Part shown: piece by piece, positions 39,331 through 52,061 of the stretch
How positions within the stretch are numbered: position 1 is the first letter of the stretch
Layout of the letters: the number at the start of each line of letters is the position of its first letter
Source: Mycoplasma ovis str. Michigan
GTDB lineage: Bacteria; Bacillota_I; Bacilli_A; Mycoplasmatales; Mycoplasmoidaceae
Length of the DNA stretch: 64,000 nt
NCBI RefSeq assembly: GCF_000508245.1
Contig: NC_023062.1
Coordinates: 1-64,000 of the forward strand
Direction of reading: 5' to 3'
Notes under the pieces: generated by a model
Seen by the model: only the letters and a program-made list of their open reading frames with translations
Databases searched by the model: none
Told to the model about the DNA's origin: nothing
Made by a program: the position numbers and the translations under genes

Positions 39331-40316
39331 CTTTTAATAGGATTCTCCAATAGATATTTAAAGACTTCCTCTATTTTCCCTTTTTTTAGCTGTTCCATCA
39401 AAGAGTCATATTTGTCCTGAGGATAACTATCCTTCTTTAGAGGTTCTAGTTTGTCTGCAACAACTAAAGATTTACCTATTATATCTAAATCAGCAATAGG
39501 TTTAGTGTGATGCTCTATTGCAGTCAATACAGAATCATCTAATCTAAAAGCTTTAGATAGATAGTTTCTTGCTACAGGTCCATGTAAATTTCAAATTTCA
39601 TTTTCTAATTCTTGCTTAGGTTTGGAGTACATTCTTGATGCTAATTGGAGTAGTTTATCTTTAGTTCAGTCCTTTGCAAAATCATGATACGCACAACTTA
39701 GAAGTAATTTATTCTTAGTAACTGGATCCATAGAAGATCAATTAGCAATTTGATTTGCAAATTTCAAAACTCTTATAGTGTGATCAAATCTGGGATCAGA
39801 TTGTTCTTTATGTACTCTTTTTATTGCTCCCATTAGAGTTCTTTCTGCTTCTGTACGTACCATATGAATTCTTTTCCAGTTTTGACTACCCAAAGAAAGA
39901 TCCAAGTTACCTTTGTGCTTGTTAGTGAACAGTAGAAAGTTTCAAGAGTTAGAGATATTTTCCAATGCCAACTTTATATGGTTTATTGCTAAGGTTTCAA
40001 TTAAGTAGGCAATTTCTTCCTTTGGAAGATCACTATATTCACTCTGAATCACAGATTCAATATATTCTTTAAATTTTTTGGGATCTTTTATGTCTTGATC
40101 TTGTGGAATTTCTCGAAATTCTACAGAAATAAAAGGATCAATAAGACTAAGTTGTAACTCTACTTGTTTTCTGAAGAGTACTAATTTTTTATAAGCAATA
40201 TCTTGACTTAAACCCCTCTTGTAATAGACAACTTCCTCTATCTTAAAGTGTTGACTCAGAGTCTTTAATACTTCTGGATAAACCAAGGAATAACTGTTAA
40301 AGTAAATTAGTTTCAT
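39327..40316 (-). CDS. yqeK: YqeK-like HD-domain phosphohydrolase with degenerate N-terminal domain
   Basis: The C-terminal half has HD-domain motifs: FDHTIRVLKFA, CAYHDFAKDW, LHGPVA, AIEHHTKPIADLD and VADKLEP, the YqeK (Ap4A hydrolase) pattern. The N-terminal ~160 residues sit where mycoplasmas often have a fused NadD nucleotidyltransferase. No GxFDPxHxGH or SxTxxR motif is seen, so that domain is replaced or decayed. 329 residues. Its ATG overlaps the ptsG stop by one base. Confidence 0.78.
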
Positions 40317-42139
40317 TACTCTTCTACTTTATTACTTTTATTTGCGAAACTCAAGAGAGTTGTGTTAATTTCTTCAGCTTTTGGACCAACAATAAGTTGA
40401 ACATGATTATCACTAATTCACTTAATAGCTATCACTCCTCCCTTCTTAAGTTCTGATTCTATCACTTTGGTTTTATCTTGTATGTCATATCTCAGTCTTG
40501 AAGCGCAATTCTTGTAGTTTGTTACATTTTCTCACCCCCCTAGACCTTTCTTAAATGAAGATACTCAAGCAGGAAGATCGCTATCTTCTTTTGAAGTTTC
40601 TTCTTGTTGGTTTTGTGGCTCTAAAGGTTGAAGTTGCATTTCTTCTTCAAAATGTTTCTTTCTGAAAAAGTAATAGAATACTGCAAAGTATACTATTGCT
40701 AATCCACCTCCTACAGCAGCTCAGTAGTAGAACTTTGTACCTTTTTGAATTGGAATAGCTCCATTTATTAATAGTTCAATAATACCTCCAGAGAAAGCTG
40801 TAGGTATATGAGCTCCAGCTAATTTCATAGCTAAGAATGATACCCCACACATAGTTGTGTGGAATCAGTAGAAGAGTCTAGGTATGGAATACATAAAGCT
40901 GAACTCTATAGGTTCAGTAATACCCAATACTACAGAGTTCATAATTCCTGGAAATAGAGTTTTAGATAGTTCTTTTCTTTTTTCGCCTCTCTTAGAGGCA
41001 GAAAAATATATAGCTAAAGCTGCTGCAGGTAAAGCAAATTGCATTATTGGGAATTTACCTTGAGTTAGTCTGCCTATGTGTAAGGAACTCAATGCTTCAA
41101 ATAATTTAGTTCCATTGTGTAATGATAGTGCTGAAGCGCCCATTAAAGCATCACCTTGTCATTGGAGTGAATTGCTATTTCCAAAGCAAAGACAGCAACA
41201 AGTCGTTCCACCAGAGCAAGAGGATGCACAACATTCCTTTAATGTTTCTGTAACATTATGTAGAGCGTTTCCTCCTAAAGGTGTGTACCAAAATAAAGAA
41301 GCAAATAAGTGGTGAAATCCAGTAGGAATTAATAGCTTTTCTAGAAAACCAAATAAGAAGGCATCAGCCCCTTGACCCTTAGCTATATAGTTTCCTGCAT
41401 AGGATAAACCAATCCCTATTCAGGGATAAAAGACCAAGAATAATAAAGCTAACGGAATTACTGCCAAAGTTGTTAATAAAGGCATTAGCCTTTTTCCAGA
41501 AAAATAAGCCAAACAATTTGGCAGCTTTATTTCTGATCAATTCTTAAACAAATATGGAATTATTATGCCTCCAATTATCATTGGAGCAAATATAGAGCAA
41601 TTTAGAGTAGTAATTCCAAAAAATCTATGTATTAAGCTGTTGGCTTTTTCCCTGCCAGCACCTCCGAATAGAATATTTAGTCCATTGTCTTTTTCTGCGC
41701 AACAGGGGAGAAGAAAACAACATTTATCGTTGGTACAACACCCTCCTTTTCCTCCGCAAACGCATTTACAGTCTCCGTTTTTAGTGCAACTAATAAAAGC
41801 TGAATTAAAGTAAGTAAAAGTTAGAAATCCTAATATGGCGCATCAAACAGCAATTCCTTCATGTTTTTTAGTAAAAGCCAAAGCAAAAGAAACACATATC
41901 AATAGTGGAAATGCTTGCAATAATGGCAAAGCAATAGATTGTATTGCTTTTCCAATTTTCGATAAAGTATCTCCATTACAGTTTTGGTTGATTACTCCTC
42001 CAACGGAGAGAAAAAGGCTCGTGATGGCCATGGATGCAATCGGGAGCATGAAGGCTCCCGAAATTCCTGAAAGCTTGAGTTTTAAATTACTTTTATTGAG
42101 ATTGACAAAACTTAACTTAGTATTTGAGCCTTTGACCAC
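40316..42139 (-). CDS. ptsG: Glucose PTS enzyme IICB with cysteine-rich insertions
   Basis: Imports and phosphorylates glucose. Seen: ~10 membrane segments; IIC motifs FHHLFASLFWYTPLGG, FPIMQFALPAAALAIY and LGITEPIEFSF; and a C-terminal IIB domain with phosphorylatable Cys in NYKNCASRLRYDI. 607 residues, GTG start, eight or more TGA-Trp. Two insertions are remarkable: ten Cys within about 30 residues (coding 41700-41800) and seven Cys within about 16 residues (coding 41190-41235). IIA is encoded by crr at 7.4 kb. Confidence 0.9.
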
Positions 42140-43832: not shown

Positions 43833-44207
43833 TTAACTAAAGAGATTCATTCAAAAGGGTTTAGATTCTAGAAAATATTTAATAATTTTGTTAGTGTTTT
43901 CCAAATTAGTTTGAAGATAACTTCCTTGGTTGCTTAAAGAAAGTTGTATATATTCCGCTTCCTCGGAACTTTTTGGAGAAATAACTTTAATATCAGTAAT
44001 TTTTAGTACTTTAGACTTTTCATTCTCTAAATAATAAAAATTACTACCTTTTCTTAGTTGTAATTTCCTATAACTTTCTACAGACAAATTCAACTCATTA
44101 GAAACTAAGTAGTTGTATTCAAATTTATCTACTTTAATTGCAAATCCAGAAATTCCTAAAGTAGATGCTCCAAAAATCAATATTGAAATAGCCTCTTTTA
44201 AAAACAC
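43833..44207 (-). CDS. Small membrane-anchored partner of the C39 exporter
   Basis: 124 residues, GTG start one base after the exporter stop. One N-terminal membrane segment (ISILIFGASTLGISGFAI) is followed by an external-looking domain with EYNYLVSNELNLSVESYRKL. Tight coupling suggests a role in the same export process. The adaptor-like topology is HlyD-like only in a loose sense. No family recognised. Confidence 0.65.
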
Positions 44208-44208
44208 C

Positions 44209-46236
44209 TTAGGAGTTCAGGGATATTTTTTGTTCTAAATCAATATGATTTACAAAAAATTTCTTTAACTCTAAGTTGTGTTCAGAACAAATTACAAAAT
44301 TCTTTTGAAAAATTATGGGAAATAAATGTTCAAATACTATTTCTCTAATTGAGGAATTGATGTGAGAAGTTACTTCATCCAATAGAAGTATTTTTCCTGA
44401 AAGAGTGCATAGGTAAAGACAATTTGCAAATTGTCTTTGACCATCACTCAATTCTTTCCCACTTAAGTTTTGATAGTCATAAATTCCTATTTGACTTGCT
44501 AAATAAAGCAATAACTCTAATTTTTCTCCAATCAAAGACTGTCTAAGTTTTATTCAGTCAAACTCTAATGGTTCTGATTTAGAGTTTTGATAAATAACTA
44601 ATTTATTTAGGGAATTCTCTCAAAGATTAGAGAGACTTGTTCCATTAATGAAGATTGAACCAATTGAATCAGGTAGTTGTGCAGAAATTAATTTGTACAA
44701 AGTACTTTTCCCAATACCAGAAGGCCCATAAATGAAGCTATTGGGATAAATTAACAGATTTAAGTTATTAAATATGATCTTTTCTCCATTGTGATAAGTA
44801 AGTCCCTTAATTTCAATGAACTTTGGACTTATAGTTCGAACTTTTAAGTTTTCTCTAACTTCTGGTAAGTTGTCATTAAATAACAAATGTTTAAATTGGG
44901 TTACTGCATTTGAATATTTAGTTCAATGAAAACTATTGAGTATTAACTTATCTAATGCATTGCTCAGTTGCATATAAGCTAGTCCGGACGATATTAATGT
45001 AGCAATGGTAATATTCTTTTGCAAATACAAGTATGCTCCTATAAAGTAAATGGAGCAATTTATTAACTGAGTCATAAAAAAATTAAGTTTCAAAAATAAA
45101 GTCTTTCTAGATTGAAAGAATTGATCTGTTAATTGTCAATCGGATATTTCAGAACTCAGAGAACTATTTAAGAGTGAGAATTTACTGAAATCTCATTCAG
45201 TTTTCAAAAATTGATTGAGTTTAAAAATAAGTTTTTGAATGTTTACATTATGTTTCAATAATTTTTCTATTCCGGTGTTATCTAATTTATGAACAATATA
45301 GAAATTTATTGTCTTAGTCAAAATCAAGACAATAATTAGAACTAAAAATCAAAACTGTAAATAAATTAGATAAAGACTTATTAAAGATGCAATGATAACA
45401 CTAGAGACCAGAATACTTAATAATTCGCTGTAGAAAAGAGAAATAGTTTCTGAATACTCTTTAATCATTAAGTATTGATTCTCAGATAACTTAGAGAAGA
45501 AGTAATTCTTCTTCTTTTCTAATCTATCTATTAGTACTCCATATAGTTCTTTGAAATATCATTGTCTATCTTTGAGATAGTAAATAGACTTAATGTACTC
45601 TAATAGAGATCAGATCAAAACAACTAGCATAGTAACAAAAATAATTGAGGCAATATTTCCCAAATATTGACTCTGCATAACATCCTCAAAAATTAATTTG
45701 TTTATTGAAAAACTAGTTATTAGTAGAAAGAAGACTATTAGCTCTAAAGATATATTTCTCAGTAATTTAGGAAATTTCAGAATAGATATTTCCTTTTCTG
45801 AATAATTAACTAGTATTTTTGACTTATCAGAAGAGTCAATTTTTTCTACTAGTAATATCTTTCCTGAAAATATAGAAGCTAACTTTTGATAGTTAACTCT
45901 TAATTTTCCTAATTCAGAGTCATAAAGAATGCAAGAGTTTTGTAATTTTCTGGCTATAACAAAATGTTCACTATTGTTTCTATACAAGAGCATTACAAAA
46001 AACCCTTGTAATGGGTTCTTTTGTAATTCTTTAATAGATAATTTGTAAGCCTCTAGATGTATTCCATATTTTTTGTTAACAGTTTCTAACTCAAAGATAG
46101 AGATTCCTCGTTCGCTTATATTTAGTTGGTTAAATATTTCTGTTCTACTAACTTCTTTCTTAAGAAAGTGATTAATGAGAGATCTTGTGACTGATATTCC
46201 ACAGTCATTTTCACTCTCTTGATAGTAAATCTTCAT
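44209..46236 (-). CDS. Peptidase C39-containing ABC exporter
   Basis: Such exporters cut the leader from a peptide and export the rest. Seen: an N-terminal C39 domain with ESENDCGISV (Cys12), SEHFVIARK (His91) and YDSELG (Asp106); a transmembrane domain; and an ATPase with Walker A YGPSGIGKST at about 504-511, signature LSDGQRQ (for LSGGQ) and LLLDEVTSH. 675 residues; ten or more TGA-Trp codons hide it under the standard code. Divergent to a Cys/His-rich peptide gene, a candidate substrate by position only. Confidence 0.88.
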
Positions 46237-46248
46237 AAAAATAGACCT

Positions 46249-46268
46249 TCTAATTTATTAATTACTCG
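46249..46268. promoter_or_regulatory. 20-base motif shared with the recA/tmk intergenic region
   Basis: TCTAATTTATTAATTACTCG lies in the divergent gap between the C39 exporter and the Cys/His-rich peptide gene. It is repeated exactly at 59931-59950. A GACAAA follows both copies within a few bases. A shared operator or promoter element is inferred. Confidence 0.45.
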
Positions 46269-46314
46269 GACAAAGGAAAAAAGATCAAAAATATCTAAAA
46301 AATTTTTTATTTTT

Positions 46315-46320
46315 TATAAT
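46315..46320 (+). promoter_or_regulatory. Candidate -10 box for the Cys/His-rich peptide gene
   Basis: TATAAT sits 8 bases before ATG 46329 in an otherwise A/T stretch. If it is the -10 box the message would be almost leaderless. Confidence 0.3.
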
Positions 46321-46328
46321 TAAGACAG

Positions 46329-46523
46329 ATGTCAGGTTGTTGTAGTTGTAAATGTATGAGTCATTGCCATTGTGGCAGTTCTTGCTGTTCTTCCGGTTGT
46401 TGCGCAAATCACCACCATCATCACCATTGTTGTTGTTCAAAAACTGCAAGTTGTTGTTCGAGTTGTGAGGAAGAGTCTTGCGGTAGTTGTTGCACAGACT
46501 GTTCTACTCACAAAGGAGATTAG
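46329..46523 (+). CDS. Cys/His-rich metal-binding-like small protein
   Basis: 64 residues with 20 cysteines and nine histidines, including a natural run of six His at about 28-33 and many CC, CxC and CxxC pairs. That composition is metallothionein-like; Zn, Cu, Ni or haem-iron handling is inference. There is no signal peptide and no Gly-Gly leader, so a role as substrate of the neighbouring C39 exporter is not supported by sequence alone. Base use is richer in G/C than neighbours because of TGT/TGC codons. Confidence 0.8.
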   Translation: MSGCCSCKCMSHCHCGSSCCSSGCCANHHHHHHCCCSKTASCCSSCEEESCGSCCTDCSTHKGD

Positions 46524-46540
46524 GTTAATTTAGGCTTTTT

Positions 46541-46559
46541 ACTTGGCTTTTAGCCAAGT
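46541..46559 (+). terminator. Hairpin after the Cys/His-rich gene
   Basis: ACTTGGC and GCCAAGT form a 7-bp stem with a TTTTA loop. An outer AGGCT/AGCCT pair can extend it. It lies 18 bases after the stop. The T-run is weak. Confidence 0.5.
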
Positions 46560-46572
46560 TAATTAGCCTTTA

Positions 46573-46980
46573 ATGTATCAAGATAGTATTTATTGACTAT
46601 CAGGTCTTAAAAAATTTAGTTCAAAAGAACAAAGAAAAGGGATTTTAATTCAACCTAATCAGGAATTAGGTTGTCAAGATAGTATTCAAGTATCTCTTAA
46701 TTCAAAACCAATCATTTCTAGTATTCAATTAGAAATGCAAGGTTGTGTTTTACTAAAAGCCACTACCAATGCTCTTTGCTTATGCATTGAGAAAAAAAAT
46801 AAATTAGAGGGTTTGGAAATTATTGATAATTTTCTTAGTATGATTCGAGGAGAAAAATTTAATTCAAACTTACTGGATGAAAACTTAAAGCTATTTGAGA
46901 AATTTAAATTAGCCTTAAGTAGGAGAAATTGTTTAATAATGGGAGCATTGGAATTGAAGAAAGCTTTAGAAAATAATTAA
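46573..46980 (+). CDS. sufU: Fe-S scaffold protein SufU/IscU-type
   Basis: Assembles Fe-S clusters or takes sulfur from the desulfurase. The three ligand cysteines are visible: LGCQDSIQV, QGCVLLKAT and RRNCLIMGALELKKAL, matching the U-type GCGD, GC-x-SxAS and R-x2-C pattern, though divergent. 135 residues with TGA-Trp. The likely partner csd is at 52.1 kb. Confidence 0.85.
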
Positions 46981-46983
46981 ACT

Positions 46984-47961
46984 ATTGCTATTAAAAAACG
47001 ATTAATACTCGGCTCACACATATCACTAAATAAGCCTAATAATTATCTTTTAGGAGCAGTCAGGGAATCCATATATAATGGAGCAGATTGCTTCATGATT
47101 TTTACTGGTCCACCCCAAAACAAAAAAAGAGTTCCTGTAGAACAATTATTTTTATTAGAAAGTCAAAAAGAGGCACAAAAGGCCAATATTGACTTTAAAA
47201 ATTGTGTTATTCACGCTCCCTATATCTTTAATCTTGCAAGGCCAGATGAAGATGGTTTTATTCATTCTTTGTTAGTTAATGAAATTAAAAGAACTGTTCA
47301 ACTGGGGTGTAAGATTTTTGTTGTTCACCCCGGATCTTTTCTTTCAACAACCAAAGATTCTGAACAACTATTAGTTGACCATAAACAGGGAATTCAAGAA
47401 GTTATTAAAAATATCAAAGGAATATTAAATGCAACAGAAGATTTAGATTACTTCTTTGCATTAGAAACTATGGCAGGCAAAAAGAATCAATTAGGAAGTA
47501 AGTTAGAGGAACTCAAAGAAATATTTGAAGGTTGCGAGTGGCATCCTAAGCTAGCTGTTTGTTTAGATACAGTTCACTTACATGATAGTGGTTACGATCT
47601 TTCAGATGTTGAGGGATTCAAGAAACAATTGGATTCTTTGATAGGACTTCCAAGAGTAAAGACTTTACACTTGGGAGATTCAATGAATCCTAGGGGATCT
47701 AAAAAAGATAGACATGCAAATTTAAATTATGGTCATATCGGATTTGATACTTTAATTAAATGGGCTTATGATGAATATTTTTCAACTTTACCAATAATAG
47801 TTGAAACTCCATTTTGAATTCAAGAAAAAGGAGTTAAAAAGGAATTGGTGTCTCCCTATAAGTGAGAGATTCAATTAATTAGAGACAAAGTTTGAAAACC
47901 TATTCCTAATGAAGAATACAAACCGATTTATAATCGATTTTTAGTTAATGAAAATGAATAA
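46984..47961 (+). CDS. nfo: Endonuclease IV (AP endonuclease)
   Basis: Cuts abasic sites in base excision repair. Seen: LGSHIS, IHAPYIFNLA, VVHPGSF, FALETMAG, VCLDTVHLHDSGYD, TLHLGDSMNPRGSKKDRHANLN and IIVETPF, the zinc ligands of the TIM barrel. About 325 residues. No ATG/GTG/TTG precedes LGSHIS in frame; ATT 46984, four bases after the sufU stop (or 46990), is proposed. Confidence 0.92.
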
Positions 47962-48302: not shown

Positions 48303-48378
48303 GGTGTCTTAGCCAAGTTGGTAAGGCATGGAGCTGCAACCTCCATATGCATCAGTTCGAATCTGATAGACACCTCCA
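48303..48378 (+). tRNA. tRNA-Cys (GCA)
   Basis: Acceptor GGTGTCT/AGACACC, anticodon stem GGAG/CTCC with loop CTGCAAC, CCA encoded. Confidence 0.92.
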
Positions 48379-48382
48379 AAAT

Positions 48383-48458
48383 CTCCTAATAGCTCAATGG
48401 ACAGAGCACTAGCTTGCGGTGCTAGAGGTTATAAGTTCGACTCTTATTTAGGAGGCCA
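48383..48458 (+). tRNA. tRNA-Arg (GCG)
   Basis: Acceptor CTCCTAA/TTAGGAG, anticodon stem CTAGC/GCTAG, loop TTGCGGT giving anticodon GCG, with G37. The CGN-box tRNA is normally ACG (inosine) in bacteria, so G34 is unusual. T-loop TTCGACT, CCA encoded. Confidence 0.88.
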
Positions 48459-48463
48459 TAAAA

Positions 48464-48541
48464 CGGGACATAGCTCAGTTTGATTAGAGTGCTTGGTTTG
48501 GGACCAAGAGGTCGCAGGTTTGAATCCTGTTGTCCCGACCA
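48464..48541 (+). tRNA. tRNA-Pro (UGG)
   Basis: Acceptor CGGGACA/TGTCCCG, anticodon stem CTTGG/CCAAG with loop TTTGGGA, CCA encoded. Confidence 0.92.
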
Positions 48542-48548
48542 CTAATTT

Positions 48549-48625
48549 GGCAGGATATCTCAGTTGGTTAGAGGGATCGGTTCATATCCGATAGGTCGCG
48601 GGTTCGAGCCCCGCTCCTGCTACCA
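48549..48625 (+). tRNA. tRNA-Met (CAU), elongator
   Basis: Acceptor GGCAGGA/TCCTGCT, anticodon stem ATCGG/CCGAT with loop TTCATAT. Overall sequence resembles mycoplasma elongator tRNA-Met more than tRNA-Ile2. The lysidine-modified tRNA-Ile(CAU) is the alternative. Confidence 0.8.
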
Positions 48626-48631
48626 TTTATA

Positions 48632-48723
48632 GGAAGCTTACCCAAGTGGACGAAGGGGTCAGTCTTGAAAACTGAGAGGCATCTAGTAGGTGCGCAGGGG
48701 TTCGAATCCCTTAGCTTCCGCCA
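48632..48723 (+). tRNA. tRNA-Ser (UGA)
   Basis: Acceptor GGAAGCT/AGCTTCC, anticodon stem TCAGT/ACTGA with loop CTTGAAA, long variable arm, CCA encoded. Confidence 0.92.
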
Positions 48724-48806
48724 TTTATTTGTTAACATCTCCTATGAGTGAGCTTTCTAATTAAGGGAATATTTTTTCCCTCAGGGAGCTTTTGTTTCTA
48801 TAGTAT

Positions 48807-48884
48807 CGCGGGGTAGAGCAGTTTGGTTAGCTCGTCAGGCTCATAATCTGAAGGTCGTAGGTTCAAATCCTACCCCCGCTACCA
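48807..48884 (+). tRNA. Initiator tRNA-fMet (CAU)
   Basis: Acceptor begins CGCGGGG with an unpaired first base, typical of initiators, and the GCTCGTCAGGCTCATAA region matches bacterial fMet. CCA encoded. Confidence 0.92.
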
Positions 48885-48887
48885 ATA

Positions 48888-48965
48888 GGGGCTTTTAGTG
48901 TAGAGACCTAACATACCACACTGTCACTGTGGAGATCGCGGGTTTGAATCCCGTAAGGCCCGCCA
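48888..48965 (+). tRNA. tRNA-Asp (GUC)
   Basis: Acceptor GGGGCTT/AAGGCCC, anticodon stem CCACA/TGTGG with loop CTGTCAC, T-loop TTTGAAT, CCA encoded. Confidence 0.92.
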
Positions 48966-48982
48966 TATATGGATTTTGGGTA

Positions 48983-49058
48983 GGCTTCGTAGCTCAGTCG
49001 GTAGAGCAACGGTCTGAAGCACCGTGTGTCGGCAGTTCGATTCTGCCCGAAGCCACCA
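48983..49058 (+). tRNA. tRNA-Phe (GAA)
   Basis: Acceptor GGCTTCG/CGAAGCC, anticodon stem ACGGT/ACCGT with loop CTGAAGC, CCA encoded. Confidence 0.92.
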
Positions 49059-51659: not shown

Positions 51660-52061
51660 ATTCACTTACAAAGTAATAAAAAAAGACTTTATAAATATCA
51701 ATCCTTTGACAGTTATGTTGCAGGATTGAGTCTAAGTTCTACTATAGTTAGGGGGATACTTAGGGGAGAACTATCTTTTGGAAATAGCTACATTAAACCA
51801 ATAGATTCTGAATTATTTTTAGTAGGTTTTTGTTCTGAACCTATAAAGTTGTTACTTCATAAAAGAGAGATAAGGAAGATTATTGAATCTTCTAAAAAAC
51901 AAGGATATTCTATACTCCCACATTCTTTTTTCTTGAAGAACAGAAGAATTAAATTAGAGATTCATCTTTGTAAATACAACAAAGAACATTTAAGGGAAAA
52001 GAAAAATAAAAAGTATCTAAGGTCTAAGGATGAGAACAAATTCTTAGATTTTGATTATTAA
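51660..52061 (+). CDS. smpB: SsrA-binding protein SmpB
   Basis: Partner of tmRNA in ribosome rescue. VRGILRGELSFGNSYIKPID and LLLHKREIRKIIESSKKQGYSILPHSFFLKNRRIKLEI match SmpB's core strands. 133 residues, about 15-20 shorter than usual. The frame before the core has no ATG/GTG/TTG except TTG 51726, which would cut the N-terminal strand; ATT 51660 is proposed. tmRNA itself is not in the window. Confidence 0.85.
   Translation: MHLQSNKKRLYKYQSFDSYVAGLSLSSTIVRGILRGELSFGNSYIKPIDSELFLVGFCSEPIKLLLHKREIRKIIESSKKQGYSILPHSFFLKNRRIKLEIHLCKYNKEHLREKKNKKYLRSKDENKFLDFDY

Follow-up and report, generated by a model that had tools for sequence, protein, structure and literature searches.

The first 64 kb of the Mycoplasma ovis genome, which consists of one contig of 702,511 bp, were analysed and are referred to here as the window. 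An overview of the locus is given in Table 1. A small Cys/His-rich ORF and the gene for a C39 peptidase-containing ABC exporter are arranged divergently and are separated by an intergenic gap of 92 bp. Positions 46249-46328 are the intergenic portion of the stretch that was originally flagged (46249-46523). The Cys-rich ORF is followed by a hairpin, sufU and an nfo-like gene. Further downstream, an eight-tRNA gene cluster that begins with tRNA-Cys occupies positions 48303-49058 of the window, and a sufS-like gene is found at 52051.

Table 1 Features at the Cys/His-rich locus of M. ovis (positions refer to the window)
Feature	Position	Strand	Remarks
Exporter partner, mini HlyD-like membrane fusion protein	43833..44207	-	124 aa
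C39 peptidase-containing ABC exporter	44209..46236	-	675 aa; Pfam Peptidase_C39 1.5e-20, ABC_tran 3e-12
TATAAT, presumed -10 box	46315..46320	+	from sequence
Cys/His-rich metallothionein-like ORF	46329..46523	+	ATG to TAG, 64 aa; counterparts in 9 other haemoplasmas
Hairpin between Cys-rich ORF and sufU	46530..46572	+	inner stem 46541-46559
sufU, Fe-S sulfur-transfer scaffold	46573..46980	+	135 aa; TIGR01994 E 1e-8, under curated cut-off
AP endonuclease, TIM barrel, nfo-like	47005..47961	+	Pfam AP_endonuc_2 1.1e-39; start codon uncertain
tRNA-Cys(GCA)	48303..48378	+	first of the eight-tRNA cluster; context only

The Cys-rich ORF and its counterparts in haemoplasmas

The M. ovis peptide starts with MSGCC, ends with HKGD and contains 20 Cys, 14 Ser and 9 His, among them an HHHHHH run, so that the composition given in the initial annotation (64 residues, 20 Cys, nine His, a natural His6) is borne out by the ORF. 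Cys makes up 31% of the peptide, compared with 1.2% across window ORFs of at least 150 aa, and no second ORF within the 64-kb window exceeds 11% Cys. V, I, L, F, W and Y are entirely missing, which leaves nothing from which a Sec signal or a C39 leader helix could be built. In 60 simulated windows (order-1), the highest Cys share among ORFs of at least 50 aa was 12.5%. A second Cys-rich gene was not found by similarity search of the M. ovis genome, and the readable matches to a CCxxCC pattern were other frames or simple repeats and yielded no further Cys-rich gene.

The haemoplasmas compared were M. wenyonii INIFAP02, Ca. M. haemominutum, Ca. M. haemolamae, M. haemocanis, Ca. M. haematobovis and M. 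haemofelis, together with three further genomes that we take to be M. suis Illinois, M. parvum and M. wenyonii Massachusetts. The M. ovis/suis genus is denoted g1 and the M. haemofelis genus g5. A similarity search with the peptide returned a single clear relative; a match in genome G025 turned out not to be a Cys-rich ORF. When the DNA beside sufU and the exporter was read, a Cys-rich ORF with an ATG start was found adjoining the orthologous exporter locus in all ten haemoplasmas, which do not count as ten independent events because the genomes share ancestry. The ten peptides have 50-103 aa and 15-33 Cys (25-37%), and Cys and Ser are their dominant residues. The M. ovis peptide has no V/I/L/F/W/Y residue, that of M. 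parvum has 11, and the remaining eight have 1-5 each. As in metallothioneins, the peptides are small and high in Cys, with CC, CxC and CxxC clusters throughout and few or no aromatic and hydrophobic residues. When the M. haemofelis peptide is aligned with that of Ca. M. haematobovis, none of the 18 aligned Cys differs, compared with 16 of the 32 other residues (hypergeometric P = 1.2e-4 for preferential Cys conservation), and seven TGT/TGC switches are seen.

The frame is of low complexity, and the +1 frame and some reverse frames are likewise open or almost open, as would be expected of a spurious ORF within repetitive TGT/TGC sequence. This is extremely improbable in view of the ATG-start counterparts in 10/10 genomes, a TATAAT-like box directly 5' of the ORF in nine of them, the synonymous TGT/TGC switches alongside full Cys conservation, and the simulations, none of which (0/60) came near the observed Cys share. 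The Cys-rich ORF is a genuine, fast-evolving gene common to all sampled haemoplasmas.

The nearest outgroup, genome G007, lies outside the haemoplasmas by 16S; its exporter nevertheless groups with the haemoplasma exporters. It encodes a stand-alone Cys-rich ORF of 63 aa with 14 Cys (MNKKCCDTCTCANCTCV...CCHSCQ; L136:2807-2997, + strand), which has its own SD, TATAAT and terminator and is located ~4.8 kb from the exporter. This gene is similar to the haemoplasma gene and may be an orthologue. Used as a query against 95 family genomes, it gave no further strong match. sufU was not found in G007. The frame of the G007 exporter is interrupted (L044:1483-3505) into 487 aa and a separate ATPase piece, by sequencing error or decay.

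Promoter, hairpin and sufU

From the TATAAT box of M. ovis, we infer that transcription would begin no more than a few nt from the ATG. A hairpin 3' of the Cys-rich ORF is present in the six g1 species examined besides Ca. M. haemolamae; its sequence differs and its pairing is kept, and the hairpins of M. suis and Ca. M. haemominutum are followed by a T-run. The M. haemofelis orthologue of sufU passes Pfam NifU_N.

Polycysteine leader ORFs are known from mycobacteria. The haemoplasma ORF resembles them as a Cys-dense ORF 5' of a sulfur-related gene, and it could accordingly be read as a cis-acting leader, in which ribosome stalling at Cys codons would sense Cys-tRNA and control sufU via the downstream hairpin. 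The order Cys-rich ORF, hairpin, sufU that is seen in g1 species, and that in four of them directly abuts the start of sufU, fits this reading, as does the function of sufU, which deals with cysteine sulfur. However, the Cys-rich ORF is not always immediately 5' of sufU across haemoplasmas. In Ca. M. haemolamae, the Cys-rich gene has remained with the exporter while sufU is ~400 kb away, and no sufU follows the Cys-rich gene. ORFs intervene in M. suis (119 aa) and in the haemofelis group (a membrane ORF of ~150 aa, between the Cys-rich gene and sufU), and G007 has the Cys-rich gene without sufU. The ORF is also much longer than a sensor requires and longer than the mycobacterial leaders, and its spacing is conserved as in a protein. 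A role as leader is therefore very unlikely.

The intervening ORF of M. suis (L009:1931-2290, - strand) is rich in Tyr, Gly, Pro and Cys and coat-like.

The C39 exporter and its partner

The initial annotation had described the peptide gene as divergent to a C39 exporter with an intact triad (Cys12, His91, Asp106) and a coupled small membrane partner. Both points hold: Gln6 can be added to the triad, all four residues are invariant in the ten haemoplasmas, and the partner begins 1 nt beyond the exporter stop. Among 30 sequences of the wider exporter family, the catalytic Cys and His are invariant, and the D106 column holds C in four. The fused ABC ATPase carries Walker motifs. The best family is NCBIfam NF045998 (Mbov_0121 family) at 226 bits, under the curated cut-off of 500, and the nearest solved structure is PCAT1 (4ry2, E 4e-16); the exporter is like both in its C39, membrane and ATPase parts and in its Q-C-H-D site. 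Known PCAT substrates carry a Gly-Gly leader, whereas the neighbouring M. ovis peptide does not. The absence of this leader, already remarked on in the initial annotation, extends to all ten haemoplasma peptides (no GG/GA/GS after spaced hydrophobics). A search of 14 genomes for Gly-Gly leader substrates with TIGR01847 gave none over the cut-off, a weak null result because the model has 15 positions and just 1/14 controls pass.

The AlphaFold2 model of the partner (pLDDT 90.8) predicts one N-terminal helix and a small, membrane-proximal beta domain, as in HlyD-type membrane fusion proteins. Its top Foldseek match is HlyD of the HlyB/D complex (7sgr, prob 1.00, TMq 0.53), a likeness of fold only because E is 0.03. 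It differs from HlyD-type proteins in its length of only 124 aa and in lacking the long coiled-coil and the lipoyl domains, since the model shows no other long helix. The MAG1140 family NF045999 is matched by 7/18 relatives. The exporter is present in 79/95 family genomes (45/46 among good genomes), and the exporter/partner pair is found throughout the family with no peptide gene next to it. At 20 non-haemoplasma loci, no Cys-rich ORF adjoins the exporter, and no common candidate was found among the small ORFs beside the non-haemoplasma exporters. Since the exporter is widespread in the family, the partner is HlyD-like and seven relatives match NF045999, exporter and partner are an old mollicute secretion pair (Mbov_0121/MAG1140) that is ancestral in the family.

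Synteny in other haemoplasmas, which the initial annotation had raised as a check, was found: peptide and exporter genes lie within ~1.5 kb of each other in 10/10 genomes. The peptide may thus be imagined as cargo of the adjacent exporter and HlyD-like partner, secreted with or without C39 cleavage, and binding metals or thiols or forming disulfides outside. The retention of the peptide gene beside the exporter in Ca. M. haemolamae, away from sufU, speaks for it, as do the complete exporter with its invariant catalytic site, the HlyD-like partner, and a Cys-rich, possibly extracellular loop that the M. ovis/suis clade carries in its glucose PTS protein. Against it stand the missing Gly-Gly leader and the near lack of hydrophobic residues for a leader helix, an exporter that is ancestral to the family and elsewhere has no such neighbour, and the haemofelis group, in which other genes lie between exporter and peptide. 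The stand-alone gene of G007, apart from the exporter and with no sufU in the genome, weakens both the export and the sufU-leader reading. The linkage to the exporter is real, yet may reflect positional inertia, because sufU and nfo share the same neighbourhood. Export of the peptide is possible on this evidence, though doubtful. More specifically, and less probably, a leaderless 20-Cys metal- or thiol-binding peptide might be exported via the C39/mini-HlyD pair and capture metals or cross-link the wall-less cell surface on red cells; if true, such leaderless Cys-rich peptides would be a class of cargo that is not known from exporters of this kind.

Two side observations concern these neighbourhoods. 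In the haemofelis group only, an ORF of 101 aa that matches no known family is directly divergent to the exporter, between it and the Cys-rich gene (L127, G010:225058-225360). The glucose PTS EIIC of M. ovis (window 40316-42139, - strand) contains the Cys-rich inserts CTKNGDCKCVCGGKGGCCTNDKCCFLLPCC and CCASSCSGGTTCCCLC at ~41670-41790, which are present in the M. ovis/suis clade and absent from the haemofelis group and other mycoplasmas; if the topology of E. coli PtsG applies, the first of them presumably faces outwards.

A proposed metallothionein-like peptide

With a probability of about one half, the peptide is a small, disordered, cytosolic metallothionein-like metal/thiol buffer and not a standard C39 substrate. 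This reading is favoured because composition, CC/CxC spacing, His runs and missing hydrophobic residues are metallothionein traits. We infer metal binding and a cytosolic site from these traits. The clustered Cys (CC, CxC, CxxC) would act as ligands for soft metal ions, with Zn2+ or Cu+ the probable ones, although the choice of metal is a guess; His would assist in the M. ovis clade, and the peptide would buffer thiol-reactive metal. The gene would be transcribed alone from the promoter beside its start codon, with the transcript ending at the hairpin, and exporter and partner would be a separate, older secretion unit. The initial annotation had left a choice between an intracellular metal or haem-iron buffer and an exported metal-binding peptide. 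The metal buffer fits better, given the lack of leader and hydrophobic residues, exporters without the peptide elsewhere and the separate gene in G007, and the haem-iron part has gained no specific support. On the other hand, adjacency to the exporter in 10/10 genomes would also fit cargo, and the rapid change in length and sequence would fit a secreted, host-exposed peptide, too.

No match to P1B heavy-metal ATPases was found in the ten haemoplasmas and G007, and none to CDF efflux proteins in 13 genomes (one model each; 14/14 controls found in both cases). The lack of matches to these efflux pumps suits a buffer peptide circumstantially; the M. genitalium-type genome G020 is likewise without a CDF match.

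Among bacterial metallothioneins, SmtA is a Zn-binding protein, MymT gives protection against Cu and a Pseudomonas metallothionein forms a Zn3Cys9His cluster (PMC7387436). These proteins are similarly small and Cys-rich, and some are His-rich. The gene smtA is divergent to that of its repressor, smtB (PMC7387436), an arrangement like that of the haemoplasma peptide gene, whose divergent partner is an exporter instead of a metal repressor. The haemoplasma peptides differ in their 25-37% Cys, His runs and many CC pairs. No homology or credible match was found in Pfam, NCBIfam or among PDB metallothioneins, and the peptide, a putative metal binder, is accordingly not assigned to any metallothionein family.

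Alternatively, the Cys might not be metal ligands and might instead form disulfides or a thiol pool against erythrocyte oxidants. Such a structural or redox role would agree with life on red cells, with the predominance of Cys and Ser and with the Tyr/Gly/Cys-rich coat-like ORF next door in M. suis. It is unlikely, because metal ligands typically show such His clusters and CxC/CC spacing and because the cytosol is a reducing environment.

The observation of a Cys/His-rich peptide beside the exporter is confirmed and is stronger than could be told from one sequence. Judged by its composition, the buffer candidate looks like a previously unrecognised metallothionein-like peptide that matches no known family; in the literature searched, no pairing of haemoplasmas with Cys-rich or metallothionein terms was found, and none of mycoplasma with C39 peptidase. 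The exporter and its partner constitute an uncharacterised, near-universal secretion pair of this mycoplasma family. Haemoplasmas are uncultured. A conserved Cys-rich peptide may bear on the way in which they cope with iron, zinc, copper and oxidants on red cells, and in genomes without a detected heavy-metal P-type ATPase or CDF protein it is a small, synthesizable object.
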